Assembly: GCF_002924445.1 (NCBI RefSeq)
Contig: NZ_PIGG01000010.1
Location: 1 to 64,000, forward strand
DNA length: 64,000 nucleotides
From: Minwuia thermotolerans
GTDB lineage: Bacteria; Pseudomonadota; Alphaproteobacteria; Minwuiales; Minwuiaceae
Direction: 5' to 3'
Positions 9,707 to 36,413 of this stretch are shown piece by piece (within the stretch, counting starts at the first letter, position 1; every line of letters begins with the position of its first letter). The notes under the pieces were generated by a model. The model did not search any database. It was not told the DNA's origin and saw only the letters and a list, made by a program, of their open reading frames with translations. A program made the position numbers and the translations under genes.

Positions 9707-9789
9707 ATTCGTTGAAGTCTTCGGGCCTGGCGAGGCTGTCCCGGCCGTCCCGGGGAGGACCAGTGTTGAGGCGTCGACGGGTGCACCGG

Positions 9790-9810: not shown

Positions 9811-9842
9811 CAACGGGCGGTTCAAACAGGCACTGGAACGAT

Positions 9843-10103: not shown

Positions 10104-10339
10104 CAGCGCTCACCCTGCAGGCGTTCGAATTCCTTGAATGGGCCGCGCACCCGGCCCTCGCCGCTGGGCCAGGACTTGAACGCGAGCATGCCGAGCGCGA
10201 TCGGCAGCCCGGCCACCGGAATCAGCGCGAACAGCGAGATTGCCGGATTCAGCCCCACCCGCTCGCAGATGCGCCAGATCGGCAGCACGAAAAGGATGCC
10301 GGCAACAACGGCCCAGCCGAAAAAGCCGATTTCAAGCAA
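10103..10339 (-). CDS. Small membrane protein of unknown function
   Basis: 78 residues from a TTG start at 10339 with GGAG 7 nt upstream. Longer in-frame versions without a ribosome site begin with non-membrane sequence. Two hydrophobic segments (IGFFGWAVVAGILFVLPIW and ISLFALIPVAGLPIALGMLAF) flank a short loop. It is translationally coupled to the next gene and resembles it in size and topology. Confidence 0.6.
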   Translation of the reverse strand: MLEIGFFGWAVVAGILFVLPIWRICERVGLNPAISLFALIPVAGLPIALGMLAFKSWPSGEGRVRGPFKEFERLQGER

Positions 10340-10420
10340 CGGGATACTCCGTGGTCGATTGTCGCAGGGATCAGATATGGGGACTGCCGCCGGCCTTGCC
10401 AGCCCCGGCGCCAATGGAAT

Positions 10421-20360: not shown

Positions 20361-21671
20361 GCCGTAGCCGAGGACGAAGGTCACCAGCGAGGCCATGAAA
20401 TAGCCGTACCCATACCAGGCGAAGCCCATCTCCATGGTGGCCCAGGTAAACAGGCCGTTGGTCAGCAGGAAGACCACCTGCACCAGCAGCATCACCCGCC
20501 TCAGGTCGAAATAGGCCAGGACGATCCCGACGAACATCAGCAGGACGTGAAACAGCGATCCCAGCACGCCGAAACGGAAGATGCCGAGCTGCAGGGGCGG
20601 TATCGACAGCACGTCGAACAGGCGGCCGGCCACCAGGATCACGGTGACGCAGATGCAGAACTGCAGGATCACCACATTGCGCGAAGCCATCAGCAGCGCT
20701 TGGATGATGTTGCGGTGGTTGCTGTCGATGCGGTGGTAGTTCGCGTGGTGCTCGATGTCCCGGTAGAAGCGCTGGTAGTGCTCGAAGAAGCGGGTTTCGA
20801 TGTTGACGATGAAGATCGCCATGGCCGGCACGATGGTGAGATAGGCCAGGAACATGGCGCCGTCATATGCCGGATAGGTGACGAAGCCGGCTGCAGTGAT
20901 CTCGCGTTCCGGCGCGCACCACATCACCCATTTGTCGACCCAGATCGCGAGATTGTAGATCAGTCCCGCCAGCGCCAGATCCCAGTACTTGCGGAAGTAG
21001 CGCATGAACCGCCAGGGCCGCATGATGCGGTAGGGATATTCGGCGAAGACCCGCGCGATCAGCCCGAAGAAGATGATGCCGAGGCCGATGTTGAAGCCGA
21101 TGGTGATGCCCAGCGCGCCGATCACCCCGGCGAGCCAGAGGCTGGCGCCGCCTGCGGTGATCATGCCTACAAGAAACGCCAGCGTCACCGAACGGTAGTC
21201 CTTCAGCGCGGTCAGGAAGACGTTCACCAGCCAGATCGCGGCGACGAGGAAATAGTTGACGATGCCGGCGGCCGCGAGGTCGGGCGGCAGGTCGACCACG
21301 AACAGGTAGAACGGGACGACGATCATCGCCTGACTGCCCAGCAGCAGCACCATCGCCGCCAGCAGCATGCCCGGCGCCTCCTCCACCTCCTTGCGGAAGA
21401 TCATGTCGGCCAGATAGCGCGTCGCCACCAGCAGCACGGGTCCGGAAAAGGCGAGGCTGAAGGCGAAGTTGTAGATCAGGATGACCCGGAAGGTGATCAA
21501 CTCCGCGACTGTCGTCAGGTAGATGCCGAACAGGTTGATCGACCCCACCGCCAGAATGGTGAACAGCCACGGACCCGACGAAACGACGGCGGAATGGGTG
21601 TAGCCCTGGACAATGCCCAGCAGGTCGTCGCGGCTGGTCAGCCGCCGGAGCGCGAAGCCGATGCCCGCCAT
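20292..21671 (-). CDS. pelG: PelG, Pel polysaccharide inner-membrane exporter
   Basis: 459-residue polytopic protein with about 12 membrane segments, starting MAGIGFALRRLTSRDDLLGIVQGY, which is characteristic of PelG (MOP/Wzx-like flippase superfamily). It would move the nascent Pel chain across the inner membrane with PelD, PelE and PelF. The start shares a base with the pelF stop (TGATG). Last gene of the pel operon; its 3' end overlaps pdeM. Confidence 0.92.
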   Translation of the reverse strand: MAGIGFALRRLTSRDDLLGIVQGYTHSAVVSSGPWLFTILAVGSINLFGIYLTTVAELITFRVILIYNFAFSLAFSGPVLLVATRYLADMIFRKEVEEAPGMLLAAMVLLLGSQAMIVVPFYLFVVDLPPDLAAAGIVNYFLVAAIWLVNVFLTALKDYRSVTLAFLVGMITAGGASLWLAGVIGALGITIGFNIGLGIIFFGLIARVFAEYPYRIMRPWRFMRYFRKYWDLALAGLIYNLAIWVDKWVMWCAPEREITAAGFVTYPAYDGAMFLAYLTIVPAMAIFIVNIETRFFEHYQRFYRDIEHHANYHRIDSNHRNIIQALLMASRNVVILQFCICVTVILVAGRLFDVLSIPPLQLGIFRFGVLGSLFHVLLMFVGIVLAYFDLRRVMLLVQVVFLLTNGLFTWATMEMGFAWYGYGYFMASLVTFVLGYGLCAWYVGRLPFLTFVQNNTSVR

Positions 21672-23236
21672 CAGGCCGCCTCCATCTCGCTCCCGCCGCC
21701 GCTTTCTCCCCCGGCAGGCGCAGGGAGCCTGTCCGCTTCCGGCCGATCGGGCAGCGCCATGTGCGTTTCGTAGAGGTCGCGGTAGATGCGGTCGATCTCG
21801 ACCTTGTTGTAGTACAGCCGCACCCGTTCCCGGATCGCCTCGCGGGCCCGCGCCATCGTCTCCGGGTCCTTGAGCAGGGCGGCGAGTTGCCGGCCCGTTT
21901 CGGTCGGATTGGCCAGCGGCGTGATGGCCCCCCCGCGGCCGAGCGGCGGATCCTCAGTCGGCATGCCGAGCAGCATGTCGCGGCAGGAGCCCACATCGGT
22001 GGCGACCGTCGGGATGCCGGCGGCCCCGCCCTCCAGGATGACCAGGGGCTGCGCCTCCGAGATCGAGGTCAGCACCATGACGTCGACCCGGCCCAGCCAT
22101 TCGTCCAGCTTGACCCGGCCCGTGAACTCGAAATTGTCCTGCAGTTCCAGATGTTCGACCATCTGGACGCATTCGCGGTAGTAGTCCTCGTCCTCCTCCG
22201 TCGGGCCCATCATCCAGGCCAGCACGTCGGGCACCTCCTGCTTCAGCACAGCGACCGAGCGGATGAAGGTCTTGATGTCCTTGATCGGCACCACGCGGCC
22301 GATCAGCGCCACCGTCGGCCGGTCGTGCGGCTCCCGCGGAATCTTCGAGAACCGCTCATAGTCGACGCCGTTGGGAATGATGCGCAGCTTGCCCGGATCG
22401 GCGCCGTCGCGGCGCTGCAGGTCCTGGTTGCCCGTGTAGAGCGTGATGATCTCGTCACAGGCCTGATAGCAGCAGCGGCTGTAGGCGACGAAGGTGTCGA
22501 TCCACAGATCCTTGAGATCCCGCTTCGGCTTGTCGAGACCCAGGCTGCCCGAGGGGCCCTCGTAGAGCCAGTCCGCCATCGCGATCTCGATGCGGCGTTC
22601 ATTGGTGTAGATGCCGTGCTCGGTCAGCAGCACCGGCCGGCCGGTCTCCAGCTTGGCGCGGGCAGCGAACAGGCCGGCATAGCCGGTCGATATGGTGTGG
22701 AAGACCTTCGCCTGTGGCATGGGCGAAAGCATGACGCTGAACAGGCCGCCGAGCAGAGACCTCCAGGTCCAGAAATAGTCCAGGAACGAGCCCTCCGGCA
22801 TGTCCTTGCCATACATCCGCAGCAGCATCTCCCACGCCGGCCGGGAGTTCATGAGCAGCCGCCGGCCGTAGCGCCCTTCCCCCTTCGCCAGTTCGTCCAT
22901 CAGCCGCTTCAGATCGAAGATGTCGCCCTCGGACTGGATCGCCCGCAGCGCCTCCTCCATCCCGGCCAGGCGCTTGCGAAGATCGATCATCCAGCGCGCG
23001 CCGGGCGGAAGCTGCTGCAGGAAGACGTGATTGAGACCGCGCACGTTGTCGGGCATCTCGTAGCGCCGCTCCGGCGGCTCGGTGCCGGGCAGCAGGCTGA
23101 CGATGTGGAAGGTCAGTTCGCTCTGCGCATTGATCAGATCATGGACCCACGTCGAGACGCCGCCGGCGACGTAGGGATAGGTTCCTTCCAGCACCAGGCA
23201 GACGTCGACCGGCTCCAGGTTGCCGACCCTACGCAT
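21671..23236 (-). CDS. pelF: PelF, family GT4 glycosyltransferase
   Basis: Cytoplasmic glycosyltransferase of about 521 residues that polymerises the Pel chain. The N-terminus VDVCLVLEGTYPYVAGGVSTWVH is the PelF hallmark. The C-terminal half has the GT-B donor site: ALIGRVVPIKDIKTFI, then E..PLVILEGGAAGIPTVATDVGSCRDM. ATG 23236 (MRRVGNLEP) is chosen because GGGAG lies 6 nt upstream; ATG 23254 and 23266 have no usable site. It then overlaps pelE by 8 bp. Confidence 0.93.
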   Translation of the reverse strand: MRRVGNLEPVDVCLVLEGTYPYVAGGVSTWVHDLINAQSELTFHIVSLLPGTEPPERRYEMPDNVRGLNHVFLQQLPPGARWMIDLRKRLAGMEEALRAIQSEGDIFDLKRLMDELAKGEGRYGRRLLMNSRPAWEMLLRMYGKDMPEGSFLDYFWTWRSLLGGLFSVMLSPMPQAKVFHTISTGYAGLFAARAKLETGRPVLLTEHGIYTNERRIEIAMADWLYEGPSGSLGLDKPKRDLKDLWIDTFVAYSRCCYQACDEIITLYTGNQDLQRRDGADPGKLRIIPNGVDYERFSKIPREPHDRPTVALIGRVVPIKDIKTFIRSVAVLKQEVPDVLAWMMGPTEEDEDYYRECVQMVEHLELQDNFEFTGRVKLDEWLGRVDVMVLTSISEAQPLVILEGGAAGIPTVATDVGSCRDMLLGMPTEDPPLGRGGAITPLANPTETGRQLAALLKDPETMARAREAIRERVRLYYNKVEIDRIYRDLYETHMALPDRPEADRLPAPAGGESGGGSEMEAA

Positions 23237-24374
23237 GCGCGGCTCCCGCGTCATTCTCCGCACCATGCCCCTGCCAGACGCGGATCACGTCGCGCATGCG
23301 GTCGCTGGCGCCGGGCCCGGCCAGGATGTCGTCGCCGAAGGCGGCGACGGCGTAGCGCAGCTTGTCGAAATCGCCCAGACGGTAGGCCGCCTCCATGTAC
23401 CAGGACAGCTCGCTCGGCCCCAGCACGCCACGCCGGAATCCTTCCTCGAACCAGCTCTCCGCTTCCTCCAGCCGGTCGCCCCGGACCAGCAGACGTCCGA
23501 CGCCCAGCGTCGCGTCATGGCGGGCTGGATCGAGTTCCAGCGCCTTGCGGTAGTAGGTCTGGGCCTTGTCCCTGTTCTCCCGCTGCCGGTCCTCGTCCAG
23601 AATGCCGCTGTAGGCGTAGTCGTCGAAGTGCCGCGCGGCGCGAACCTGCGCCTCTGCATCGCCGGGGTGACGCCGCGCGCGGGTTTCCAGCTCGATGGCG
23701 CGCTCCAGGAAATCGCCTTCGATATTGGCCGCCGCGGTCGCCGCCTGCACACGGACCGCCGGATTCGGATCGGACAGCGCCGACAGCAGCGCCGGGGCGA
23801 ACTCCGGCCGGAAGTCGCGCGAAAGCAGAGAGATCACCGCCCGCTTCTGCTCGATCGAGCCATATTGCAGTACGTCGGTGAACGACGTGACGTTCTCCTG
23901 GCCGGCGGCGTCGGCGAGCCCTCGCGTCAGCATCTCGAACAGCCGCCGGGAAGGCATGTCCACCTCCTCCGGAAACAGGGACGCGTACCATTCCTCGAAA
24001 GGCGTCGCCCGCCGCCGGAACAGGGCGTGCAGGCCGAGCGCCAGCAGCGTGCCGAGCGGCCCGAATGGGCCGAGAAAGAAGGTCGACAGCGCCAGCAGCG
24101 TCAGCAGCCGGGAGGGCGAACCGGTGGGCCGGAAGCGCCACGCGGCGGCGGCGACAACGGCGACCGTCGCCAGGTGAATCGCGCCAGGAGTCCAGCGCGG
24201 CCGGTACTCGATCCACAGGAACCAGGACATGGCCGCCTCGCCGGCCATCGCGACAAGGCAGAAGGCCAGGATCATCAGCGTCGGGATCGGTCCCTGGCGC
24301 TCGGTCTGGCGATGGCGGCGCGCGTCGCTTTCGATGCGCTCCAGTTCCGCCTGGACTTCCCTCGGCGCGGTCAT
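23229..24374 (-). CDS. pelE: PelE, membrane/TPR protein of the Pel complex
   Basis: 381 residues. Two hydrophobic segments near 33-50 and 65-85 plus one near 90-115 are followed by HEAT/TPR-like repeats (LSALSDPNPAVRVQAATAAANIEGDF; AQTYYRKALELDPARHDATLGVGRLLVRGDRLEEAESWFEEGF). Position between pelD and pelF and this architecture identify PelE, which holds PelD and PelF together at the inner membrane. It overlaps pelD by 4 bp (ATGA). Somewhat longer than the Pseudomonas protein. Confidence 0.85.
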   Translation of the reverse strand: MTAPREVQAELERIESDARRHRQTERQGPIPTLMILAFCLVAMAGEAAMSWFLWIEYRPRWTPGAIHLATVAVVAAAAWRFRPTGSPSRLLTLLALSTFFLGPFGPLGTLLALGLHALFRRRATPFEEWYASLFPEEVDMPSRRLFEMLTRGLADAAGQENVTSFTDVLQYGSIEQKRAVISLLSRDFRPEFAPALLSALSDPNPAVRVQAATAAANIEGDFLERAIELETRARRHPGDAEAQVRAARHFDDYAYSGILDEDRQRENRDKAQTYYRKALELDPARHDATLGVGRLLVRGDRLEEAESWFEEGFRRGVLGPSELSWYMEAAYRLGDFDKLRYAVAAFGDDILAGPGASDRMRDVIRVWQGHGAENDAGAAHA

Positions 24375-25882
24375 GCGCCCTCGGCCCGGCGGTTCTCGTC
24401 CGCAGCCTCGCGCGGCACGCGGTACAGGGGCATGACCTTTGCGGCCACCCGCACATCGTCCAATCCCGCGACCCGGAGATAGTGCTGGACGGCGCGAACG
24501 ATCCCGGCGGACGCCTCATCGCCCATGGTCTCGGGATCGACGCCGGGCAGGATCAGTGCGAATTCACGGCCGTTCTGGCGATACTCGTAGGCCTGGACGA
24601 CAGGCGACATGTGATGTTCGACCACGTCGTGGACGGCCTTCACCAGCCCGGCGCGGCGTTCGGGATGCAGGACGTCCAGCCCCTCGGCCTTGAGCGTCAC
24701 TGCGGTCATGTCGATGCCGAAGCGCTCGCCGAACTGCCGCATCAGCTTGCTGTGACTCTTGAAGACCACATCGGTGAACATGTTGCGTTCCTCGTTGAAC
24801 AACATGTTGGACTGGGCCTTGCGGAATCGCCGGGCGTTGGCGAAGGCCGTGCCCACCCAGTCGCTGAGGATGCGGAAATTCTCCAGCGACGAGATGTGCA
24901 GGTCCAGAAAGCCCAGCTTCTCGATCTTCAGCATCCCGACCACCTCGCCGGTATCGACCGATGTCAGCGGCCCGGCCATGATCCCCTCGCCCGCCAGCAG
25001 CTTCTCCTCATCGGTATTGACCGCGCTGAGGCAGCGCCGCCGCCCCACGACCTGCTGGAACACCGGCGAGCCGGAATCGAAGACGCGGGCATAGGCGTCG
25101 TCATCCTCCCAGCCGTCGTTGATCACGGCTTCCAGTACATTGCCGTTGAGCAGGTAGAGCGAGAACTTGGTCGGCTGCATGACCGCGCGCACCAGGTCGG
25201 CAATGCCGATCAGCACCTCGCCGGGGCCCAGCTTCTCGATCGCCTTGGCGGCCTGGTAGAGGGTGAACACCGTGCGGAGCTGGCCGGCCACGCGAATCTC
25301 GAGCTGCTCCTTGGTATCGAGCAGCTGGTTGTAGGCGGACGAGAGAACCTCCTCGCGATGGCTGGTCTGAGCCAGGTCGTGAGCCAGTTCCTGATTGCGC
25401 TGGCGCAGCCGCTCCCGGAGCAGGCCGATGAACAGGGCCGCAAGCACCCAAAGGATCGGCTGGGCGGCGTAGGTCCACGCGACGAAATAGTCCTCGTCGC
25501 TGAAGGTCGCGAAGCCGCCGCCGACGGACTGTTCCATGGCGGCCGCCGGCCCCTGTTCCAGAGCAATCCGGTAGAACTCCGGATCGACGCCGCTGAGCAG
25601 GGAGACCGCCGTGCACACCACGGCCGCGATCAGCCCCTCGAACACGCCGTACTGCACGGCCAGCAGGATGATCGGTATCCAGTAGGGGTTGGGATTGACC
25701 TCGGCGAAGCCGTCCACCGGCAGGAACAGGAAATCCAGCCCCACGAGCAGCGCCACCAGCAGCACGAGCTCCACATAGGCGATGCTGCGCCGGCCGCCGC
25801 GATAGGCGGTGGCCACTTCCGCCGGCGCAATGTCGCGGTCGGTGTGCTCCAGCACCTGCCGGGCGGGACCCTCCGGCGCCAT
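24371..25882 (-). CDS. pelD: PelD, c-di-GMP-receptor-like membrane protein (I-site apparently absent)
   Basis: 503 residues. About four membrane segments fall between residues 35 and 150, followed by a short coiled coil (LRQRNQELAHDLAQ), a GAF domain and a degenerate GGDEF domain. The signature region reads YRQNGREFALILP in place of R.GGDEF. In Pseudomonas PelD an RxxD I-site just before that motif binds c-di-GMP and switches Pel synthesis on. Here the aligned residues are V-V-Q-A, so classical binding looks lost. Abuts the barrel protein gene (shared base) and overlaps pelE. Confidence 0.88.
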   Translation of the reverse strand: MAPEGPARQVLEHTDRDIAPAEVATAYRGGRRSIAYVELVLLVALLVGLDFLFLPVDGFAEVNPNPYWIPIILLAVQYGVFEGLIAAVVCTAVSLLSGVDPEFYRIALEQGPAAAMEQSVGGGFATFSDEDYFVAWTYAAQPILWVLAALFIGLLRERLRQRNQELAHDLAQTSHREEVLSSAYNQLLDTKEQLEIRVAGQLRTVFTLYQAAKAIEKLGPGEVLIGIADLVRAVMQPTKFSLYLLNGNVLEAVINDGWEDDDAYARVFDSGSPVFQQVVGRRRCLSAVNTDEEKLLAGEGIMAGPLTSVDTGEVVGMLKIEKLGFLDLHISSLENFRILSDWVGTAFANARRFRKAQSNMLFNEERNMFTDVVFKSHSKLMRQFGERFGIDMTAVTLKAEGLDVLHPERRAGLVKAVHDVVEHHMSPVVQAYEYRQNGREFALILPGVDPETMGDEASAGIVRAVQHYLRVAGLDDVRVAAKVMPLYRVPREAADENRRAEGA

Positions 25883-28017
25883 CAGAAACGCACCAGCAAG
25901 TGACCGCCCACGGTGGTGAAGACGGCGTCGTCGCCCCGGCCTGACACCCGGGAATGGCCGGCGCGGAGACCGAGTTGCATGTCCTCGTCCGCGTCCCAGA
26001 CCAGCTCGCCGCCGAGGCTCGGCCCAAAGCCGCCGAACCGGTCGACGGTCAGGCTGAGAAAGGCGTTGTAGCGCCAGTCCCCGCCGAGGGCCTGCCCGAG
26101 CGAAAGATCGAGCGAATGGAACTCGGTGTCGTTGAGCGGCAGCGGCTCGAAGACGTTGCCGTTCTGGTCGCGCCTGCGGGCCTGGGCGGCGACATACTGC
26201 CCGTCGAAGGAGTAGCCGACGGTGAGGTCGGCCGCTTCCCAGGGCACCAGATAGCGGATCGCGAACGCCGCATCCCAGGTCGTCGCCGCCGTGTCGATGC
26301 CGGCGATGCCAAAGCGGTTGAGTCCGATCTCGCCCTGGGCGCTCCAGCGGCGGTCGAGCTGGCGCTCGTAGCGCACGGCCAGGCGGTCCTGCACCGCGTC
26401 GTCGACAATGCCTTCCACCAGTTCCCAGTAGGCCCGGTGCCAGGTGCCCGACACCGTCGTCAGCGAAGCAGGCGTACGATGGCTGTAGCGCAGCGAACCG
26501 CCGGGCGTCCCGGCGCCGAACAACAACGCCCCCTCGACGCGGTGGCCGGGCGCAGGGCTGCCGCCCGCATAGACCTCGCCGCGCTGGAAATGCGCCGAGA
26601 CGGAATCCAGGACGCCGTTTGCGCGCAGCACCTCGTCGTCGTCCAGGAAGCGGTTCTCCAGGCTGAAGCCGGCGTCGATCTCTTCGGCCGGCAGTACCCG
26701 GCCGCTCAGCACCGCGATGACCTGCGTATCGCCGTCCCGGACCTGCTGATAGTCGGTGTCGAGGCGAACATAGGGGCCGAACTCCCGTTCCAGCGCCCGA
26801 CGCGCCGCGGCGATATCGCGCCGTTCGGGGTCAAGACCCACGGCGCGGTCGTAGAGATTGCCGGCCCGCCGCCAGGCGCCGACGCTCTGTTCCAGATTGG
26901 CGAGCTCGACCAGCACGTCGGGATTTTCGGGGTTCTCGGTCTGGAGTTCCTGCAGGGCCTCCCGGGCCTCACCGGTCTCGCCGGTGCGCGCCTTCAGCCG
27001 CGCCCGCAGCACATCCAGCCGCACATCGGCGGCGTCCCGCTCCTCCGCGGAGGCGTCGGCCGCTGCCAGGGTCACACGGGTTCGCCCTCCTTTGGTAAGT
27101 GCATCGAAGTCGACGGGACGCGCGGCAACGAAGAGCAGGCTGTCATAACCCGCGCTGGCGCTTTCCAGCCAGGCCGGCAGTCTCTCGGCCAGCCCCTCCA
27201 CCATGTCGGGCGCCACCGGCCGGTCCAGCCTGAGCAGCAGCTCGCGCCCGGCCGCGCGGGCGTCCACACGAACCGGCCCGGCCCAGTCGATGACGATCTC
27301 CGCGCCCTCTTCGCCTCCCGTCGCGGTCACCTGCGGCGGGGCCGAGAGCTGTGCGACCCGGCTTTCCCGCTCGCTCCAGCTGCGGTTCACGGTTTCGGCG
27401 AACGGGTCGGAAGTGCGCCGCAGCCGGGACGCCGACGGCGACGCCGAAGGCTCCGCCGCCTGCGCTTCTTCCGGCCTCGCCGGCGGCGGCGGCGGCGGCG
27501 CAGGGCGTGCGGTCTTTCCGGCGACGGGACCGGGCGCAGCCGGAGCCCGGCCCCGAGGGCCAGGCGGCGTCAGGACAGGCGCAGCGCGCGCGGCCGGCGC
27601 GGCCGGTTCGGCGGCAGGTGCGGTCCCGGGCGCGATGGTCATCTCCACCGTCAGCTGGCGCAGGGATCTGTAGACGTCGAAATAGACATTCTCGGCGGCG
27701 GTCAGGGTTATCCGGTCGGCGCGCTTGTCGACGCCCGTGATCCAGTGTCCCAGACGCATGCGAAGCGCGCCCAGGTCGGGCGCGTTGAATGGCCGGTCGA
27801 AGACAAGGACGAGGCGCCGGGCCGAGGTGTCCGCCGAAACCTCGAACGGCACCGGCCAGTCGAGTTCGATCCGGGCCATGGCGCCGAGGTCGGCGGAAAG
27901 AACGCGGACGACAGGGGCCTGCAGCGGCGCCGACTGGGACAGCACGGGGAGCGGTGAGAGGAACAGCAGGACGCCGGCCAGCAGCCGCCGCAATTGACAG
28001 GACCACTCCCCATTCAT
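25882..28017 (-). CDS. pelB: Outer-membrane barrel protein, equivalent to the C-terminal half of PelB
   Basis: About 711 residues, ending in Phe as outer-membrane barrels do. After a signal segment (RRLLAGVLLFLSPLPVLS) comes an AMIN-like beta domain, then a Pro/Ala-rich linker with seven prolines. One or two TPRs follow (ENPDVLVELANLEQSVGAWRRAGNLYDRAVGLDP). Last is a roughly 280-residue run of alternating strands (FGPYVRLDTDYQQV to GGHLLVRF), like the export pore of PelB. ATG 28017 is the best start but its ribosome site is weak; GTG 28140 is possible. It leads the barrel-pelD-pelE-pelF-pelG unit. Confidence 0.75.
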   Translation of the reverse strand: MNGEWSCQLRRLLAGVLLFLSPLPVLSQSAPLQAPVVRVLSADLGAMARIELDWPVPFEVSADTSARRLVLVFDRPFNAPDLGALRMRLGHWITGVDKRADRITLTAAENVYFDVYRSLRQLTVEMTIAPGTAPAAEPAAPAARAAPVLTPPGPRGRAPAAPGPVAGKTARPAPPPPPPARPEEAQAAEPSASPSASRLRRTSDPFAETVNRSWSERESRVAQLSAPPQVTATGGEEGAEIVIDWAGPVRVDARAAGRELLLRLDRPVAPDMVEGLAERLPAWLESASAGYDSLLFVAARPVDFDALTKGGRTRVTLAAADASAEERDAADVRLDVLRARLKARTGETGEAREALQELQTENPENPDVLVELANLEQSVGAWRRAGNLYDRAVGLDPERRDIAAARRALEREFGPYVRLDTDYQQVRDGDTQVIAVLSGRVLPAEEIDAGFSLENRFLDDDEVLRANGVLDSVSAHFQRGEVYAGGSPAPGHRVEGALLFGAGTPGGSLRYSHRTPASLTTVSGTWHRAYWELVEGIVDDAVQDRLAVRYERQLDRRWSAQGEIGLNRFGIAGIDTAATTWDAAFAIRYLVPWEAADLTVGYSFDGQYVAAQARRRDQNGNVFEPLPLNDTEFHSLDLSLGQALGGDWRYNAFLSLTVDRFGGFGPSLGGELVWDADEDMQLGLRAGHSRVSGRGDDAVFTTVGGHLLVRF
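27481..27500. repeat. CGG trinucleotide tract inside the barrel gene
   Basis: Six and two-thirds uninterrupted CGG units encode the polyproline stretch of the linker between the N-terminal beta domain and the TPR/barrel part. Changes in unit number would keep the frame. Confidence 0.7.
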
Positions 28018-28126
28018 CACATGTCGATCAGACGAAGACACTGATGGACCGCAAAACCGTTGCCCCCACGCCCGGACCGCAGCCGGACAGACCGGCCAAC
28101 GGCCCATGAACTCGTACCAGCTATGC

Positions 28127-28156
28127 AATATGCTGGCCACGTTTGTAAGGCGTCAA
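28127..28156 (-). promoter_or_regulatory. Predicted sigma-70 promoter for the barrel-pelDEFG operon
   Basis: On the minus strand TTGACG (28156-28151), an 18-nt spacer and CATATT (28132-28127) lie in a markedly A+T-rich gap between metA and the barrel gene. Transcription would start about 100 bp before the ATG at 28017, or about the GTG at 28140 if that is not the start. Confidence 0.45.
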
Positions 28157-28192
28157 GATAAACGAAAAGTCAAACGAAGGGGTGCAACCCAC

Positions 28193-29119
28193 TCATTTTT
28201 CGGAATTTTTGTTCCGAGCGATGATCGCCAGCCAGTTCTGGTACATCCGCCTTCCGGCCTCTACCCAATCGGCGACGGGCGCTTGCGCCGGATCATCGTT
28301 CGGGAAATAGCCCACAGGCGGATCGATCGGCTGCCCCGCCTCCACATCGCGCTGATATTCGCGCGCCAGCGTGTCGGCATCGTATTCGAAGTGATTGAAC
28401 ATGTAGTGATGGCGCAGCCGCCGGTCCTCCAGCAGTCCGAGACCGGAGCCCTCGGAATCCGCGATGACGACAAGGTCGGGGGACTCTGGCAGATCCTCGC
28501 GATGGATCTCCGAATGCCGGGAGACAGGGATGCGGAAGCCTTCCCCGAAGCCGGCCAGTAGTTCGCTGTCGCTCTCGATACGGTGCTCGTAGACACCGAA
28601 CTTCTTCCGCTCGAGAACATATTTCGGAACCTGATGGAAATGCCGGAGCGCCGCCTGCGCGGCCCAGCAGATGTTGAAGACGCCGGTCGAACGCGCCTCG
28701 GCCCAGGCGAAGACTTCCAGCAGTTCCTCCCAGTAGGGCACCGCCTCGAAGGGTTCCTTCTCCACCGGCGCGCCGGTGATGATGAGGCCGTCGATCTCCA
28801 GGTCCCGGACTTCCGAGAAACTTCGGTAGAAGGTCCGCAGATGCTCGACGGGCGTGTTGGCGGAGCTGTAGGCGGGGTCGCGCACCCGCGCCATGTAGCT
28901 GTCGGTGGCGAACAGTACGATCTCGACGCGGCGCGGCCCGCCCGCCAGCATGCGGATGAGTTGAAGCTCCGTGGCCAGCTTGTCGGGCATCAGGTTCAGG
29001 ATCGCGACGACGATATCGGGATCGCGCGCACGGCCGGACGGCTCGAAGGTCTCGATGTCGAGGCCTTCCCGCGACAGGGCCTCGGCGGCCGGCAGGCCTT
29101 TCGGCAACAGTGCGCTCAT
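28193..29119 (-). CDS. metAA: Homoserine O-acetyltransferase (MetA family)
   Basis: 308 residues, MetA family, which acylates homoserine in methionine synthesis. The nucleophile cysteine is in FNICWAAQAAL and the His/Glu pair is in SRHSEIHREDL. The specificity position after ITGAPV is Glu; in this family Glu at that site selects acetyl-CoA while Gly selects succinyl-CoA, so an acetyltransferase is predicted despite the MetA fold. The start is ATG 29119, 8 bp after the ATPase stop with GAGG upstream; the longer ORF is noise. It lies inside the pel gene cluster. Confidence 0.92.
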   Translation of the reverse strand: MSALLPKGLPAAEALSREGLDIETFEPSGRARDPDIVVAILNLMPDKLATELQLIRMLAGGPRRVEIVLFATDSYMARVRDPAYSSANTPVEHLRTFYRSFSEVRDLEIDGLIITGAPVEKEPFEAVPYWEELLEVFAWAEARSTGVFNICWAAQAALRHFHQVPKYVLERKKFGVYEHRIESDSELLAGFGEGFRIPVSRHSEIHREDLPESPDLVVIADSEGSGLGLLEDRRLRHHYMFNHFEYDADTLAREYQRDVEAGQPIDPPVGYFPNDDPAQAPVADWVEAGRRMYQNWLAIIARNKNSEK

Positions 29120-29127
29120 CGTCAGCC

Positions 29128-30036
29128 TCAGGCCGCTTCGCGATTGCGGCGGTCGATGGCGCGGGCGACGAGATCCACGAAACCGGCCTCGTCCTGCACC
29201 TCGGCGACCTCGCCGGCCTCGACGACGTAGCCGTGGCGATCCACGATCGCCTGGTAGCGCGGAATGCGGTGCCGCCAGAGGCGCGGAAACACCCATTTCA
29301 CGAAATCGTCGGGATCGATGTCGTCCACCTGGTCCACGTCGGCCGCCGGCAGCCCCGCATCCCGGCGGTACTCCGGAATGGCGTGGCGCAGGAAATCATC
29401 CCTGTAGAACAATGGTTTGGGATTCCGCATCGCTGCCGTTTCGACCCGCTTGTAGTCCGCTTCGCCTGCGCGGATATAGAGCAGCAACGTGCCCGCGGAC
29501 AGGGCGGCCAGGACAGGGTCGTCATCCGCGCCAAAGGGATTGACGATCTCGCAGATACTGCCCGAGGCGTCGTTGATGAAGTTCGGGTAGCCGTAGATGT
29601 CCATCGCCTTGTTCTTGAACCGCTCCACGTCGAACATCGAGTTGATCTCGCCCTGTTCGTGGAGGTCCTGGCGGCGGCGGAACTCCGCATAGCTCAATCC
29701 GCCCTCCTCGCCGGCGGGAGAGGCCGGGTTGCCGATCTTGCCGAGAAAGGTCGAAATCGGGTCGAGGTTGTTCACGGTGATGTTGGAGCAGATGTAGATC
29801 GAGTCGCTCAGCAGCAGGTTGCGCAGGAACGGCACCTGCATCGCCTTGCGCTTGATGTTGTCGAGAATGTCTTCTTCCAGATACTTCGTGCCGATGCGGT
29901 AGTCGGCCGAGTAGTGGAACCATTCCAGCTTGGGCAGCTTGTTGGCCAGCATGGTCTTGCCAACGCCCGACATGCCGAGCAGCGTGATGGACTTGTGCGG
30001 ATCCTGGCGGAACGCCTCGCCGGATTCGTAGAACAT
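29128..30036 (-). CDS. P-loop ATPase/kinase-like protein of unknown role
   Basis: 302 residues with Walker A in ITLLGMSGVGKTMLANKLP (about residues 17-35), then WFHYSADYRIGTKYLEEDILDNIKRKAMQVPFLRNLL. The fold suggests a nucleoside/shikimate-kinase-like P-loop protein. I recall similar conserved proteins in other alphaproteobacteria, some near metA, but no function. Start ATG 30036 has GGGGG 5 nt upstream. It is 8 bp from metA and probably co-transcribed with it. Confidence 0.75.
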   Translation of the reverse strand: MFYESGEAFRQDPHKSITLLGMSGVGKTMLANKLPKLEWFHYSADYRIGTKYLEEDILDNIKRKAMQVPFLRNLLLSDSIYICSNITVNNLDPISTFLGKIGNPASPAGEEGGLSYAEFRRRQDLHEQGEINSMFDVERFKNKAMDIYGYPNFINDASGSICEIVNPFGADDDPVLAALSAGTLLLYIRAGEADYKRVETAAMRNPKPLFYRDDFLRHAIPEYRRDAGLPAADVDQVDDIDPDDFVKWVFPRLWRHRIPRYQAIVDRHGYVVEAGEVAEVQDEAGFVDLVARAIDRRNREAA

Positions 30037-30046
30037 TCGGACCCCC

Positions 30047-30081
30047 GGTTTCCCCGCGTCTCAGTCAGCGGCGTGGGAACC
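30047..30081 (-). promoter_or_regulatory. Imperfect hairpin in the leader of the ATPase-metA unit
   Basis: GGTTTCCCCGCG (30047-30058) and GCGTGGGAACC (30071-30081) pair with one bulge and one mismatch. It lies in the 98-bp gap between the PelB TPR gene and the ATPase start. It could end the pelA-pelB message or be a leader structure for the metA unit. I could not match it to a known SAM riboswitch. Confidence 0.35.
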
Positions 30082-30134
30082 TAGATCAACTCCGTGCCAG
30101 ATGGAACACGGTTCCGCCCTGCCGGTCCGGGCGC

Positions 30135-33100
30135 TCAGTTCTCCCGCAGCAGACGATCGGCGCGTTCATAGGCGCCGGTCTCGATCAGCAGCGAGACGAA
30201 GTCGGCCAGCAGGGACCGGTCGCGCGGCCGCTCGGCGCGAAGCTGCTCGTAGAGCGCGATCGCGTCTTCCGTACGGCCCAGGGCCTCCAGGCCCGTGGCC
30301 CGCATGCGGCGGGACTCGAAGTCATTGGCGTCGCCGGCCTCGATGCGCGACAGCATTTCACGGTAAGCGCCGCGCGCCGCCTCCTGGCGATCCATCAGCG
30401 AGAGGGACTGGGCGTAGTAGTACCAGGGGCGGTGATCGGTCCGTCCCTTCGCGTCGGCGACGGCGAAATAGCGCTCCAGCGTCTGCACCGCCTTTTCCGC
30501 CCGGCCCTGGAAAGTAAAGGCCCTGCCGGCCCGGAGGAGCGCCGCCGGATCGTCGCCGATCATGCCCAGCGCACGGTCGTAGGCGGCCACCGCGACGCGG
30601 CCCTGGTCGGCCTGCTCCGCCCAGTCCGCGAGCCTGAGCAGCGTCTTCCCGTCGTCGGCGCGGGCGACGAGCGGCGAGAGAATTTGGCCGACGCGATCGA
30701 ACCGCCGTTCCGTCACCAGGGCCCGGATCAGCGGCGCCAGCGTGGGATCATCCGGACGGCCGGGCGGCGGATCGGCGGCGATGGCGACAACGCGGCCCGG
30801 TGCGCCGGCATTGTTCAGAAACTGCAGCCATTCCGCCCGGTCATCGCCGGCGGCGGCCCTGGCGCGCTGCTCCAGCCAATCGACACCTGCCTCCGGCGGC
30901 CGCGGACCCCAGAGGTAGAGAAGCTGCTGCACGTCCGGGGAGGAAGGCGGTCGATCCTCCGCCAGCCGGCGGAACGAGGCCACCGCTTCGGGCTTCGCCT
31001 CCAGGTCGAGCAGCCTGAACGCGGCCTCCCGGCGCTGCTGCCGCGGCAGTTCGGGCAGACGGGCGCGGCGTTCCAGCCATTCCACCAGCTCGGGGCGGCG
31101 GCCCAGATCCGACAGCGCCGCCTCATAGGTGGAGGGCCATGTGCCCAAGGGATCGCCCGCGGCCGCCGTCTTCAGATAGGGCAACGCCTTCGCCGGTCCG
31201 CCGACCTCCAGCAGTTCGAACAGCAGCGGATCGCGCTGCGCCGGGGGAGGATCGCCGTCCAGCTTCGACATCAGCACCCGGGCGCGTTCCTCGTCGGACT
31301 GCGTCTGACGCAAGGCGTCCAGGTAGGCGGCTTCCCACTGCTTCGGATCCCCCTCCGCCAGGTCGCGCAGGATCGGCAGGGCGAAATCGGCCGCGCCGCC
31401 CTCGAGCAATGCGAACAGCAGCGCCGAGCGCACTTCCGGATCGAGATCGGGATCGTCGAGAGCAGTGCGTGCGAAGGCCTTCAGAGCCTCGGCATTGCCG
31501 CCCCGCCCGAGGGCCGCGACATAGGCCGACCGCACCTCCCTGTCGCCCGGCAGCAACGGACGGAGCACGGTCACGGCTTCTCCGGCCTGGCCGGCATCGG
31601 TCAGCGCCCGCCCCCAGATCAGCCGCGCCTCGTCGCCCGGATAGGCCTCGAACAGCCGTTCGGCGGCGGTGAAGGCCGTTGTCGCCGCGCCGCGCTCCTG
31701 CGCCAGATAATAGATATCGGCCAGCGCCTGGCGGCTGACGGTATCGGCGCCGCGCAACCAGTCCAGAACCCGCGCCGGCTCTCCCGCACGGGCCTCCAGC
31801 CTGGCCCAGCCTTCCAGCACCTGCGGCTCCCGGCGGCGCTCGATCAGGCGTCGGAACACCGGCAGACCCTGCTTCGCCTTGCCCAGTTCAAGGTACTGCG
31901 CCGCGAGGTCGGCGATGGCAAAGGCGGGTGTCGCCGAATCCTCCGCAAGGCTTTCCAGCAGGGCGAGGGAGCGCTCGTTCTCGCCCAGCAGCGACCACAC
32001 CCGCGCCAGGTCGAGCCGGTCCGCATTGCGCAGATCGGGACGGGCCGCTGCCTTTTCCGCCCATTCCCGTGCGGCCGTTTCGTCGCCGCGGGCCAGCTCG
32101 ACGCGCGCCGCCATCACCGGCCGCGCCGCCATGAACTGCGCCCCCACCTCGGCGACGATCTCGTCGACCAGGGCGAAATCGCCATCCACGGCGGCGTTCT
32201 CGGCCAGCGAGGCGATGGTGTCGTCATCGAACTTTCGCAGGTCCTGACGCCGGGCCTCGGCATAGGCGAGCTTCGGCTGGTCCAGCTCGATCGCCAGCGC
32301 CATGTAGTCGTCGGCGATCAGAACCGGCAGAGTGTCCTCCTCGGCTCGGGACCGCAGCCAGGCAAGGGCTTCGATCTTCCGGTCGGCCGCAACCAGCGCG
32401 GCGACATAACTCCCGGCGTCCTCCGCCGTGCCCGGCAGCAGTTCCTCCAGCACCGGCACGGCTTCGGCCGCGCGGCCATTGGCGATCAGCGCGTCGCCGT
32501 AGAGGCGGTGGGCCTCGCGGTCGGGGTGCTCCCTGTATAACCGCTCGGCCGCGGCCAGCGCCGATCTGGGCGCCAGTCCGGGCTGCGAGAGGAACACGAT
32601 GTCGGCCAGCAGATCGCGATCCGCGATCGTGTTGGCTTGCAGCCAGTCGAGCAGCACGCTGTCCTGCCCTTCGCGCGCAGCCATACGGGCCCAGCCGGCC
32701 TCCGCCGCAGGCGACGGCCGTTCCCGGCGAAGACGTTCGAATGCGCGCAGCCCTGCCCGGGTCCGCTCGGTCGAAAGATAGAGTCCGGCGAGCGCGCGGA
32801 CCGAGTCCTCGTCCAGGTCGCGGGCCGTCGCGATCCGTTCCAGCGTCCGTGCGGCTGCCTCGTCCTCTCCGAGCCGGAACTCCGCCCGGGCGAGGCGGAT
32901 GAGCTGGCGGGCACGGAGATCGTCCGTCGCCCGCGCCCGCGCCACTTCCGCCCGCACTGCCTCCGGCATGCCGATGCCGAGCAGGACTTCCGCCATCAGC
33001 GCCGGATATCCGCGCCGGAAACTCTCGGAGGCCTGGGCATGGATCTGCTCCAGCAAAGCGTTGCGCCGCCAGGCCACGGCCGCGTCGCCGATCGCCGCAA

Positions 33101-34091
33101 GCCGGAAGTCGACGATGCCGGTCAGGTCGCGGTCCTTCAGCAGGCGTTCCAGAAGGTCAATGTCCTCGGCCAGCAGCGCCAGATCCAGCAGGACGGGCAC
33201 GGCCAGGGAGGGCAGTTCGCCCCGCCTTTCCAGTTCCAGCAGCTTCTGCAGCGCCACCTGCTCCCGGTCGAGCGCCCGCTGCATGTCGGCCCAGGCGACC
33301 AGCAGCGGCGGCGTCAGATGCAGGTTCTCCTCGAAGCTCTCGAGCAGGCGGAGCCCGAAGGCCGCCTGACCCCGGTCCGCGATGCCGCGGATCACCGGCA
33401 CAATGGCGGCGGGGCCATTGGTCTGGGCCATGCGCGCGACCACTTCCTGCGCCCGCGCCGTCTCGCCCGCCGCCGCGGCGGCCAGGACGTAGAGCCGGAC
33501 CGACCGCGCCTCCAGCGAAGCCGGGTGAACGCGCCACATCGCCTCGAGTATCGCAAGCGCCTGGTCGAGGCTGCCGGACGAGGCGGCGAGCTCGGCGGCT
33601 TCCATGTAGTCGGCCGGTTTCGCCAGACCGCGGTCAACCAGCTCCGTCAGAGCGGGCAGCAGCCGCTCGTAGTCGCCGCGCGCCCGGTACAGGTCGACGA
33701 GTTGCCGGCGCTCCTGCGGCGTGCCCGCGCGGGCCACGATCTCTGCCAGCGCGGCGAGGAACTCGTCCCGGCGCTGATCGAACCGGTAGTATTCGGCCAG
33801 TCGCCGACGGGCCGCCACGTCGTTCGGATTGCGCGCCAGATAGTCCTCCAGCAGCGTGATCGCGTCATCGATCTCACCCAGGTTGAGGGCCAGATCGGCA
33901 AGCGGGGCGATGACCTGAACCGACCTGTCGCCTTCGCGGTAGCGCTGCAGCAGGGTCTCGCGGCCGGCGAGATCCGTGTCCTGACTGCTGAGCTGCAGCA
34001 GGGCCACGTCCTTTTCGCGCGGGATCAGCAGGAAGCTCAGACCGATTCCGAGCAGCACGACGACGGCCAGCAGGATCAGGTTGATGCGCAT
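30135..34091 (-). CDS. pelB: Large TPR protein, equivalent to the periplasmic half of PelB
   Basis: 1318 residues. One N-terminal membrane anchor (residues 1-24, MRINLILLAVVVLLGIGLSFLLIP) is followed by tetratricopeptide-like helical repeats over the whole remainder, for example IDDAITLLEDYLARNPNDVAARRRLAEYYRFDQ and PVLEELLPGTAEDAGSYVAALVAADRK. There is no beta-barrel at the end. Pseudomonas PelB (about 1190 residues) has anchor, TPRs and a 16-strand barrel in one chain; here the TPR part alone exceeds that length. It starts 9 bp after the pelA stop, consistent with the PelA-PelB interaction. Confidence 0.85.
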   Translation of the reverse strand: MRINLILLAVVVLLGIGLSFLLIPREKDVALLQLSSQDTDLAGRETLLQRYREGDRSVQVIAPLADLALNLGEIDDAITLLEDYLARNPNDVAARRRLAEYYRFDQRRDEFLAALAEIVARAGTPQERRQLVDLYRARGDYERLLPALTELVDRGLAKPADYMEAAELAASSGSLDQALAILEAMWRVHPASLEARSVRLYVLAAAAAGETARAQEVVARMAQTNGPAAIVPVIRGIADRGQAAFGLRLLESFEENLHLTPPLLVAWADMQRALDREQVALQKLLELERRGELPSLAVPVLLDLALLAEDIDLLERLLKDRDLTGIVDFRLAAIGDAAVAWRRNALLEQIHAQASESFRRGYPALMAEVLLGIGMPEAVRAEVARARATDDLRARQLIRLARAEFRLGEDEAAARTLERIATARDLDEDSVRALAGLYLSTERTRAGLRAFERLRRERPSPAAEAGWARMAAREGQDSVLLDWLQANTIADRDLLADIVFLSQPGLAPRSALAAAERLYREHPDREAHRLYGDALIANGRAAEAVPVLEELLPGTAEDAGSYVAALVAADRKIEALAWLRSRAEEDTLPVLIADDYMALAIELDQPKLAYAEARRQDLRKFDDDTIASLAENAAVDGDFALVDEIVAEVGAQFMAARPVMAARVELARGDETAAREWAEKAAARPDLRNADRLDLARVWSLLGENERSLALLESLAEDSATPAFAIADLAAQYLELGKAKQGLPVFRRLIERRREPQVLEGWARLEARAGEPARVLDWLRGADTVSRQALADIYYLAQERGAATTAFTAAERLFEAYPGDEARLIWGRALTDAGQAGEAVTVLRPLLPGDREVRSAYVAALGRGGNAEALKAFARTALDDPDLDPEVRSALLFALLEGGAADFALPILRDLAEGDPKQWEAAYLDALRQTQSDEERARVLMSKLDGDPPPAQRDPLLFELLEVGGPAKALPYLKTAAAGDPLGTWPSTYEAALSDLGRRPELVEWLERRARLPELPRQQRREAAFRLLDLEAKPEAVASFRRLAEDRPPSSPDVQQLLYLWGPRPPEAGVDWLEQRARAAAGDDRAEWLQFLNNAGAPGRVVAIAADPPPGRPDDPTLAPLIRALVTERRFDRVGQILSPLVARADDGKTLLRLADWAEQADQGRVAVAAYDRALGMIGDDPAALLRAGRAFTFQGRAEKAVQTLERYFAVADAKGRTDHRPWYYYAQSLSLMDRQEAARGAYREMLSRIEAGDANDFESRRMRATGLEALGRTEDAIALYEQLRAERPRDRSLLADFVSLLIETGAYERADRLLREN

Positions 34092-34100
34092 GGCCCGGAA

Positions 34101-36326
34101 TCAGTTCCCGCCGAGACGCGAGAGGGTCACCGGCACCGGCTCGTAGACCTGGACCGGCAGAGTCACGTTCAGGACGCCATTTCGGCCGACGACGGCATCC
34201 GCGCGCACCGTCTCGCCGTCGGGCAGCACGGCCTCGGCGCGCCATCGCCCGGGCGCCATCCCGCCCCAGCGCATCTCGGCCGGACCGAAGCCTTCGCCGG
34301 TGAAGGCCAGCCGGTCAGCTGCCCGTTCCAGGCCGCGGATGCGCCAGCGGGCATCGATCAGCCATGGTGCGCCGGGGGCCGGCCCTGCGTCGGCCAGGGC
34401 GATCAACGGCTGCGCCACCTCGCCGTCCAGGGCGACGTAGAGGCTGCCCTGGTGACGGTTGAAGCCCAGCACCCCCTCGGAGCGGGAAAGATCGACGGCG
34501 ATCGCGTCCGCCTTGTCGAAGCGCACGGTTTCCAGCGCCCCGCGGTCCAGCACCCGCCAGCGGCGCCCGCCCAGCGGCTCGAAACGCGTGGTGTAGAAAC
34601 CTTCCGCCATCCGCGTGTAGTGAGAGGCGGTGACCGGCGCGATGCGCTGGCTGCGGGCGTATTCGATATTGGCGAGCAGTGCGTTCAGCGCCGCGTCCCG
34701 CTCACCGGAATACATGTGATAGTAGACGTTGATCGGCTTAAGCCGGCGCGGGTTCTCGGTGTTCTTCAGCGTGTGAACCAGGTCGCGGAAGCCGAAATAG
34801 CGGCCCGACCAGAGGTCCGTATAGGTGTTCTCATTGCTGTTGGCGGCGTAGATCTGGCGCTCGCCGCCGATCTCGAAACCGACGGGCGGCACATAACCCA
34901 CCGAGGGATATTCGGGATCGAAGCGCGCATCGCCGCCATTGAGGTTGAGCAGACCGGCCTCGCGCGAGGCCCGGATCATCCGCGCGGACGGCGAGGTATC
35001 GCCCGACCATAGCACCAGCGCGACCTCCTTGCCCGGCGGGGTGAAACGGTTCACGACTTCGGAGGCGCCCTCGAACTCGAGGTCGATATCGAAGGGGACG
35101 TGCCCGAAGCCCCGCGGCTGGTCGTAGGCTTCCTTCAGGCTCACCACTCGGTTGGACGCTGTCTTCACCACCTCGGCGCCCCAGGCCTCGATGTCCGGAT
35201 TGGGATAGAGACGGACGAAGGGCGCCTCCTTCTCCGGCGTATAGTCCTCGAAGAACCGCCATTCGAAGGGATGGCTGAAGGTGTGGTGTGCGCTTTCGAC
35301 TTGCGGCAGGCGGAAGATTTCGCGGGCGATCTCCTGCGCCTTCTCGTCGCCCGACCATTCGGGATCCAGATCGGCGGCGATCGGCCCGACAGTGATCGGC
35401 AGATCGGGAAAGGGCTCGATCACCTTTTCCATCACCACCTGCGCCGAATAGGCTTCCTTGTCCCGGAAGGCGCGCACCAGACTGACATTTCGCCAGCCGT
35501 CCCCGTCAATATGGCTGAAATACATCCGCCGGCCCGACAATGTGGTCACGTCCGGCTTTGGCAAGGCGTCGGTGTCGAACACCTCGGCGAACAGGCGGAA
35601 CGGATTGACGTACCACTGGGTGCGGAACAGGACCGGGTCCTTGTAGTACTCCCAGCCGCCCTCCACGAAGGCCCCGGCCGGCGAGATCATGAACAACGCG
35701 CTTTCGTCGCCGGACTGGCGGTTGCGCACCTTCAGAAGGACGCGGGTCTCGTCGGATACCGGCTCGTAGAGTTCGTAGGACGGCAGCCGCCCGCCCATGC
35801 GCCGTTCGAAATCGTAGAAGTCGGAGTCGCGGTGAACGATCTCGGTATCGAAGGTGACATCGATCCAGTCGCCGCCGAGCCGGAAGCCCAGGCGCCCGAG
35901 AAAGGCGTTGACCAGGCCCCGGTCGGTCTGGCGGCCCTGCTCGTTGGCGAGAAACCCGAGATCCCCCAGAAACACGAACTTCTTGCCCGCGTCGGCCATC
36001 CGGATGGCCCAGTCCAGAAACAGTTCCGGCTGGTTCATGCTGCCCTGCTCGAACCAGCTCACGACGCCGGCGACCGCCGGGTCGTCGACGGCGTCCTGCG
36101 GCAGCGGGTCCTCGAGTTCGTGATACTCGACGCGCAGCCCGAGCCAGTTGAGGGGCATCTCTGCCAGGCGGTGCAGGTTGTGCCGTTTCAGCGTGTCGTC
36201 ATGCGGATGATGCAGGGCAATCACCTTGCGCGGCGCCTCCGCGGCAAGCGACGGCAATGCGCCCGCGGTCAACAGGACCACCGGCACGACGAGCAGACGC
36301 AGAAGGGATTTCACAAAACCGGTCAT
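34101..36326 (-). CDS. pelA: PelA, periplasmic polysaccharide deacetylase without the hydrolase domain
   Basis: 741 residues with a signal peptide (to about 29). After a flavodoxin/reductase-like domain comes the CE18-type deacetylase: D274 and D276 in YFSHIDGDGW and H348/H352 in HHTFSHPFEW. These match the spacing of the Asp/His metal and catalytic residues in Pseudomonas PelA. A C-terminal beta domain follows. The N-terminal glycoside hydrolase domain (about 250 residues) of Pseudomonas PelA is missing, which accounts for the shorter length. The start has only a weak ribosome site. First gene of the pel cluster; divergent from an MFS gene. Confidence 0.9.
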   Translation of the reverse strand: MTGFVKSLLRLLVVPVVLLTAGALPSLAAEAPRKVIALHHPHDDTLKRHNLHRLAEMPLNWLGLRVEYHELEDPLPQDAVDDPAVAGVVSWFEQGSMNQPELFLDWAIRMADAGKKFVFLGDLGFLANEQGRQTDRGLVNAFLGRLGFRLGGDWIDVTFDTEIVHRDSDFYDFERRMGGRLPSYELYEPVSDETRVLLKVRNRQSGDESALFMISPAGAFVEGGWEYYKDPVLFRTQWYVNPFRLFAEVFDTDALPKPDVTTLSGRRMYFSHIDGDGWRNVSLVRAFRDKEAYSAQVVMEKVIEPFPDLPITVGPIAADLDPEWSGDEKAQEIAREIFRLPQVESAHHTFSHPFEWRFFEDYTPEKEAPFVRLYPNPDIEAWGAEVVKTASNRVVSLKEAYDQPRGFGHVPFDIDLEFEGASEVVNRFTPPGKEVALVLWSGDTSPSARMIRASREAGLLNLNGGDARFDPEYPSVGYVPPVGFEIGGERQIYAANSNENTYTDLWSGRYFGFRDLVHTLKNTENPRRLKPINVYYHMYSGERDAALNALLANIEYARSQRIAPVTASHYTRMAEGFYTTRFEPLGGRRWRVLDRGALETVRFDKADAIAVDLSRSEGVLGFNRHQGSLYVALDGEVAQPLIALADAGPAPGAPWLIDARWRIRGLERAADRLAFTGEGFGPAEMRWGGMAPGRWRAEAVLPDGETVRADAVVGRNGVLNVTLPVQVYEPVPVTLSRLGGN

Positions 36327-36370
36327 GGATGTCTATTGTCCAAGCAACTCTCCTGCCAAAGGGGAGTGTC

Positions 36371-36394
36371 ATGATCCGCCGCCCGCAACAATAG
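36371..36394 (+). other. Possible 7-codon leader ORF upstream of the MFS gene
   Basis: ATG 36371 has AAGGGGAG 4 nt upstream, a much better ribosome site than the MFS start, and reads M-I-R-R-P-Q-Q then TAG. It ends 20 bp before the MFS ATG. It could be a translational leader; chance is also possible. Confidence 0.25.
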
Positions 36395-36413
36395 CGATAA
36401 CAGGGTTTCCGTC

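Follow-up and report, generated by a model that had tools for sequence, protein, structure and literature searches.

In the 64,000-nucleotide stretch of Minwuia thermotolerans DNA analysed here (contig NZ_PIGG01000010.1, positions 1 to 64,000; the whole stretch is called the window), the exporter PelB of a pel locus appears to be encoded by two open reading frames (ORFs) on the minus strand, and not as scaffold and barrel on one chain. One ORF codes for a tetratricopeptide repeat (TPR) protein of 1318 residues and the other for a barrel protein of 711 residues; that these are PelB split in two is well supported. We consider it probable that they belong to an exporter of the biofilm polysaccharide Pel whose PelB is made as two proteins that would meet non-covalently. 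The two-part PelB is argued for by homology, colinearity with fused PelB, predicted folds, locus context, recurrence of the split and unlinking of the two genes. An earlier note on this DNA had proposed that both proteins together match single-chain PelB, and structure, head-to-tail alignment to fused PelBs and locus context now bear this out.

The two halves and their match to single-chain PelB

The TPR half has the long N-terminal scaffold and the membrane anchor of a PelB, as judged from profile matches, a structure model and an anchor read from the sequence. TPR matches run throughout the protein (PF14559, E-value (E) 1.5e-20; PF13428, E 5e-13), and an AlphaFold model of residues 124-1318, with residues 1-123 outside the job, consists of helices only, at a mean predicted local distance difference test score (pLDDT) of 83 and a predicted template modelling score of 0.40. 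With zero strands in these 1195 residues no unrecognised barrel came to light, and the earlier description of an anchored TPR protein without a barrel holds, as does the remark that this half is longer than the entire Pseudomonas PelB (1318 residues against about 1190). At its N-terminus a hydrophobic anchor is followed by LLIP, a pattern found also at the N-termini of other split TPR halves and, in a looser form, in several fused PelBs; the anchor looks uncleaved. Inspection found no cysteine in the N-terminal segment, which therefore lacks a lipobox.

The length of the barrel half is counted from the ATG at the head of a signal-like stretch; with a GTG start at 28140 the frame is longer. Its AlphaFold model, built on a 33-row alignment, has a mean pLDDT of 82, mostly above 90 over the last 380 residues, and contains 16 beta-strands (residues 416-710, pLDDT mostly above 90), five helices ahead of them (324-413) and, in the position of Plug-I of PelB, a short helix between strands 7 and 8. 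TPR matches are confined to residues 336-408, in agreement with the few TPRs proposed for this protein. The model also contains two beta-domains of identical strand-helix order (36-128 and 229-319), with a disordered proline-rich linker between them. The label AMIN-like that the earlier note had attached to this region is unproven and has no sequence support: 12 beta-domain sequences gave zero matches in Pfam up to E 10 to the AMIN domain, which we take to be PF11741, and their profile gave no convincing match in the PDB. The beta4-alpha-beta4 order in the model is only suggestive in this regard.

In sequence searches of the PDB the barrel half itself returned TPR-type chains only, and the best 60 of 190 rows obtained with its alignment all matched its TPR part; a fold search was therefore needed. 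The best PDB match in Foldseek was 9h80_M, the PelB of PelBC (E 5.3e-16), and VIA-align placed model residues 330-711 on residues 803-1191 of the 9h80 PelB (Z 30.1, root-mean-square deviation 3.4, 356 residues). The 16-stranded barrel, the barrel-proximal TPRs and the stalk of the PelB fold are all present.

Single-chain PelBs were available from 12 pel loci of the sample; measured between stop codons they span 929-1548 residues, and two of them are truncated by a contig end. All 12 match the barrel half in their C-terminal part (E 3e-16 to 2e-51), and all but L073 also match the TPR half. Of these 11, 10 have a barrel match that starts 10-39 residues past the end of the TPR match (825 and 863 in L104); the two matches overlap in the fused PelB of L094. 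The beta-domain comes directly after the split point. Its profile matches 54 of 55 split barrel ORFs, a count that is partly by construction, many of these being rows of the profile, and that retains four duplicate records (those dropped below, except L040); it also matches seven of the 12 fused PelBs, none of which is in the profile. The split locus L042 has a different breakpoint: its barrel ORF gave no match to the beta-domain, which instead comes last in the TPR ORF (residues 1000-1057, E 1e-5).

The order on the minus strand of the window is pelA, TPR half, kinase-like gene, metA-like gene, barrel half, pelD, pelE, pelF and pelG. This is the context of a pel locus (pelA, pelD, pelF and pelG), and the assignments of PelA, PelF and PelG are firm. 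The features are as follows.

34101..36326, minus strand: PelA; mixed alpha/beta and deacetylase regions, match to PelA 9cgy_A (E 2.6e-63)
30135..34091, minus strand: N-terminal half of PelB, TPR superhelix, 1318 residues, ATG start; ORF, TPR matches and helical model
34026..34082, minus strand: membrane anchor of the TPR half, residues about 4-22; read from the sequence, without a topology program
29128..30036, minus strand: P-loop kinase-like protein; NF040667 homoserine kinase, E 0.002, far under its cut-off
28193..29296, minus strand: MetA-like homoserine O-acyltransferase; PF04204, 293 bits
25882..28017, minus strand: C-terminal half of PelB, secreted barrel protein, 711 residues; ORF, AlphaFold model and fold matches
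27628..27858, minus strand: beta4-alpha-beta4 domain, copy 1, residues 54-130; copy-2 profile, E 5e-12 in a one-protein search
27394..27624, minus strand: proline/alanine-rich linker, residues 132-208; pLDDT below 50
27055..27285, minus strand: beta-domain, copy 2, residues 245-321; profile
26779..27030, minus strand: barrel-proximal TPRs and stalk, residues 330-413; align to PelB from 803 onwards
25888..26772, minus strand: 16-stranded outer-membrane barrel, residues 416-710; model and fold match
24371..25882, minus strand: PelD (GAF); PF13492, E 1.6e-8, with locus position and relatives
23229..24374, minus strand: PelE (TPR); weak TPR matches, with locus position and relatives
21671..23266, minus strand: PelF glycosyltransferase; NF038011, 459 bits
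20292..21671, minus strand: PelG; PF16933, 413 bits

A promoter scan of 27800-36600 gave a promoter-like site before the barrel gene (28156-28127, minus strand), to which no weight is given, as 2 sites were found against 0.8 expected.

Occurrence of the split and the arrangement in Minwuia

The split is common in the Alphaproteobacteria. An even sample of the class (385 genomes) contained 21 genomes with PelG, and the halves are separate in all 17 that were readable, the window's included, mostly as neighbouring genes; in the remaining four the barrel genes are cut or partial. One of the 17, L036, has its barrel gene (9317-10961) in two frames, which is a broken gene or a sequencing error, and was entered as split by hand. 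A contig scan with the barrel protein alone found no relative, and a PelF alignment was therefore used to gather loci. Among 80 named loci, 38 are split, 12 are fused and 30 are without a usable barrel frame; they are the best 80 of the 576 matches found with a query headed by the PelF of the window, and the fractions are not frequencies. Split records come from Azospirillum (11), Telmatospirillum, Thalassospira, Paracraurococcus, Magnetococcales, Nitrospinota and some Gammaproteobacteria, and fused ones from five Acidobacteriota, Caldimonas, a Chlamydiae metagenome-assembled genome, L094 (Alphaproteobacteria), and L104 and L106 (Rickettsiales); the fused L094, L104 and L106 speak against a simple split rule for the class. 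Related genomes do, then, keep the two genes separate, and the idea of a split special to the window's locus has to be given up, as it is widespread in the class and has a printed precedent elsewhere.

Before counting, five duplicates were dropped (L034, L037, L040, L041 and L045, equal to L133, L054, L067, L064 and L092, respectively), together with L055 and L072 (barrel match under 200 residues), L069 and L096 (cut at a contig end) and L075 (under the cut). Although truncated by a contig end, L104 and L109 entered the count as fused, because their frames already exceed 900 residues. The Pfam barrel model PF24604 (B-barrel_PelB_C) matches 16 of 398 phylum-sample genomes, 15 of them above the cut-off, in frames of 1107-1417 residues (13 cases), 658 residues and 259 residues (at a contig end); it samples the canonical type only, because it misses the window's own barrel. 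The frame of 658 residues (L142, genome G717) has few TPR-type matches, and the five other matching members of its family measure 1302-1417 residues. Seven loci of Methylobacterium or Hyphomicrobium type (L119-L121, L123, L125-L127) have pelA, pelD, pelE, pelF and pelG and no match to the barrel profile; the TPR-type frames between pelA and pelD are short in L119 and L126, and a divergent or reduced exporter is possible there. L046 has the rearranged order pelA, pelD, pelE, TPR, barrel, pelC, pelF, pelG.

Outside Minwuia, an ORF of at least 250 residues lies directly upstream of the barrel gene in 45 of 47 split loci; none was found in L091, at a contig end, or in L117. With start sites picked by a crude rule, this ORF ends no more than 60 nt from the start of the barrel gene in 32 of the 45 and overlaps that gene in 30 (by exactly 4 nt in 14), which suggests coupled translation. 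L117 (Magnetococcales), in which no TPR gene was found before 4178, directly upstream of its barrel gene, is a possible second lineage with unlinked halves. In L080 and L088 (Nitrospinota) two TPR genes precede the barrel gene, the second with a beta-domain near its start.

Matches to both halves occur in all seven Minwuia genomes, the TPR match of G387 being of only 81 residues; two members of the Minwuiaceae without PelG have neither. All seven have the kinase-metA pair immediately upstream of the barrel gene. In the window genome and in G386 the pelA-TPR pair comes just before it, and in the window the kinase-like and metA-like genes, over 2117 nt, are all that separates the halves. In G197, G082, G290 and G388, pelA and the TPR gene are found at another site, together with the major facilitator superfamily (MFS) gene that flanks pelA in the window; in G197, a single contig of 4,291,441 bases, the TPR half is at 1.204-1.209 Mb and the barrel half at 4.140-4.142 Mb, 2.93 Mb apart. 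The fragmented assembly of G387 has no TPR match in the 2.1 kb before the kinase gene and its 81-residue match is on another contig; the halves are probably unlinked in this genome too. The earlier statement that the halves are encoded far apart thus fits the window only modestly; it fits four sister genomes and probably a fifth. Each arrangement is represented by a single-contig genome, G386 or G197. For the TPR half, the open frame measures 1321 codons in two species and, in four more, about 1624, and the first beta-domain extension is also present in two other Minwuia rows of the barrel alignment. The divergent MFS transporter gene (36414-37733 in the window; L134-L137) adjoins pelA in both arrangements.

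The kinase-like and metA-like genes are probably passengers; this is the simplest account of the pair because the two are also neighbours in G022 and G040, genomes in which PelG has no match. The pair would have parted the halves before the pelA-TPR block moved away. The two genes of the pair (28193-30036 in the window; seen also in L138 and L139) may act in one amino-acid pathway, the kinase having a weak homoserine kinase match. The literature consulted on Pel and PelB yielded no description of unlinked genes, undetected PelC or an extra beta-domain.

Proposed mechanism and alternatives

In the exporter that we propose, PelF, PelG, PelD and PelE would make Pel and move it across the inner membrane. 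The TPR half, with its N-terminal helix in the inner membrane, would cross the periplasm as a long column of helices, and PelA, the product of the adjacent gene, would remove acetyl groups from the polymer along this column. The barrel half would be secreted by its own signal peptide and insert into the outer membrane to form a PelB barrel of 16 strands, bearing its own short TPR/stalk collar and one small beta-domain copy (two in the Minwuia window). The column would end in non-covalent contact with this collar, at the site where the chain of a fused PelB runs on without a break. That the halves bind each other, that PelA acts on the column and that Pel is the product is what we infer from the data at hand.

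A different origin of the barrel, by replacement of the PelB barrel with one of another outer-membrane family (AlgE-like or PgaA/BcsC-like), is very improbable. PgaA (Z 24.5) and BcsC (Z 23.9) are the next-best folds in VIA-align, and PF24604 gives no match at E 0.01 to the window protein and also misses five fused relatives; of the 33 proteins in the barrel-half alignment, one of which is the window protein, it matches 11 others. However, PelB, the nearest fold, leads by 5.6 Z units, its match extending over TPR, stalk and barrel, AlgE comes no higher than rank 35 in Foldseek and is absent from 50 VIA-align rows, and the fused PelBs of other pel loci carry a homologous barrel, so that the foreign family which the earlier note had allowed for did not emerge. 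A frameshift, a faulty assembly or decay of pelB has next to no chance of being the reason for the split. Nothing in the window points to it, and an interrupted barrel frame occurs in one other locus, L036; both halves start with a hydrophobic export signal or anchor of their own, and the split recurs in 52 loci besides the window. In view of these 52 loci and the single-contig genomes G386 and G197, a frameshift or assembly error is rejected.

The barrel half might also be a self-sufficient short exporter, made of collar and barrel, with the TPR protein as a separate scaffold for PelA and no need for contact between them. The unlinked genes in four of the seven Minwuia genomes, probably five, with pelA and the TPR gene together in the four, and the TPRs and beta-domains that the barrel half has of its own agree with this. 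We nevertheless find it unlikely, as 32 of the 45 split loci outside Minwuia have the close upstream ORF described above, mostly a long TPR frame, and as PelB is one chain in 12 loci, joined where the split lies. Another alternative, that the halves arose by repeated fission of a single pelB at different points and not from an ancestral two-gene state, concerns history and not the two-part mechanism, and we give it an even chance. L042, with its beta-domain left on the TPR ORF, falls in a starred clade with five fused PelBs, and a quickly built PelF tree (65 loci) requires no fewer than eight changes of the split/fused label, three of them forced by starred branches, a count that 1 to 2 of 500 label shuffles equal. 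Against it, the tree has several long branches and an undefined root, such counts cannot separate fission from fusion, and one breakpoint is common to most split loci.

Several results weigh against a two-part exporter of Pel. The window barrel half is without any Pfam barrel match, as are five fused PelBs that were scanned; its alignment by hhalign to the canonical single-chain PelB of L143 is weak (E 0.0011, probability 20%), the barrel profile misses L143 at E 1e-3, and the TPR match to L143 is one that any TPR protein might give. A profile of four candidate PelCs, which recovers the PelC of PDB entries 5t11 (E 1.3e-15) and 9h80_C (E 3e-14), matches none of the seven Minwuia genomes, one of them 89% complete, and the partner lipoprotein PelC was thus not found. 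Furthermore, PelA lacks the N-terminal glycoside hydrolase domain, its alignment to 9cgy starting only at chain position 250 (query residue 25). Together, an undetected PelC and a PelA without this domain mean that the polymer might be other than P. aeruginosa-type Pel. The PelA frames of other loci of the class measure about 730-920 residues from the first start.

PelC is called a hallmark of Gram-negative Pel systems in passages of PMC12141448. Its profile matches nine of 15 other pel genomes and gives none in six; four of the nine matches are by construction, one is partial (G217) and one is weak, in an 812-residue frame on another contig (G044). Within loci, PelC is found in 24 of 52 split against 0 of 12 fused cases. 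The canonical fused pelB locus L143 carries PelC, and split and PelC therefore neither exclude nor require each other. L079, L083 and L089 (Gammaproteobacteria) have two PelC matches in tandem.

The same passages of PMC12141448 report that the TPR/stalk part of Pseudomonas PelB sits in the PelC ring and that PelC was not co-purified with a PelB lacking this part. For Minwuia a bridge between halves made from unlinked genes without PelC is conceivable, non-covalent and maybe exchangeable, in which the doubled beta-domain would replace docking to the PelC ring; we hold this to be doubtful. If PelB is indeed made in two parts, the unlinked genes of close relatives suggest that its halves can work unjoined, and split, even unlinked, halves are a natural test of the need for a covalent join between scaffold and barrel. 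The split would show a natural joint, at which scaffold and pore could be purified separately and mixed, and with loci that lack PelC one could ask why the PelC ring is needed in Pseudomonas.

Comparison with known systems

The alginate system also has separate TPR and barrel proteins, AlgK and AlgE, and in this the resemblance drawn in the earlier note stands. It is an analogy only: AlgE, which ranks behind the nearest folds, has 18 strands against 16 in the Minwuia model, and AlgK is a lipoprotein, whereas the Minwuia TPR half has no N-terminal cysteine; neither an 18-stranded barrel nor a lipoprotein TPR partner was found. PgaA and BcsC are likewise exporters made of TPRs and a 16-stranded barrel; they are, however, single chains of other polysaccharide systems and less similar to the barrel half than PelB. 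Passages of PMC12141448 give 18 or 16 strands for the barrels of AlgE, PgaA and BcsC.

A 'pelB fission' in aquatic thermophilic species was printed in 2020 (PMC7112194, legend to Fig 5 iii). There, too, pelB is broken into separate loci of the pel operon; the lineages are others, and the passages of that paper at hand give no architecture, breakpoint or unlinked genes. Among the titles and abstract openings listed, none concerned a split PelB in Alphaproteobacteria, in a search mostly outside subscription papers that does not establish its absence in print.

The closest known system is P. aeruginosa PelB (9h80, PMC12141448). In the passages of that paper, the structure is resolved from residue 803 on as two TPRs, stalk and barrel, the fused scaffold is long enough to span the periplasm, and PelA is placed on PelB residues 332-436. 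The Pseudomonas protein differs from that of Minwuia in being a single chain and not two proteins, and in having a PelC ring where PelC is undetected in Minwuia, and the beta-domain of the Minwuia barrel half lies outside the matched, resolved part of 9h80. Both share an N-terminal anchor, a long TPR scaffold and a pel locus, and, in the barrel part, two barrel-proximal TPRs with a stalk, a 16-stranded barrel and a helix between strands 7 and 8.

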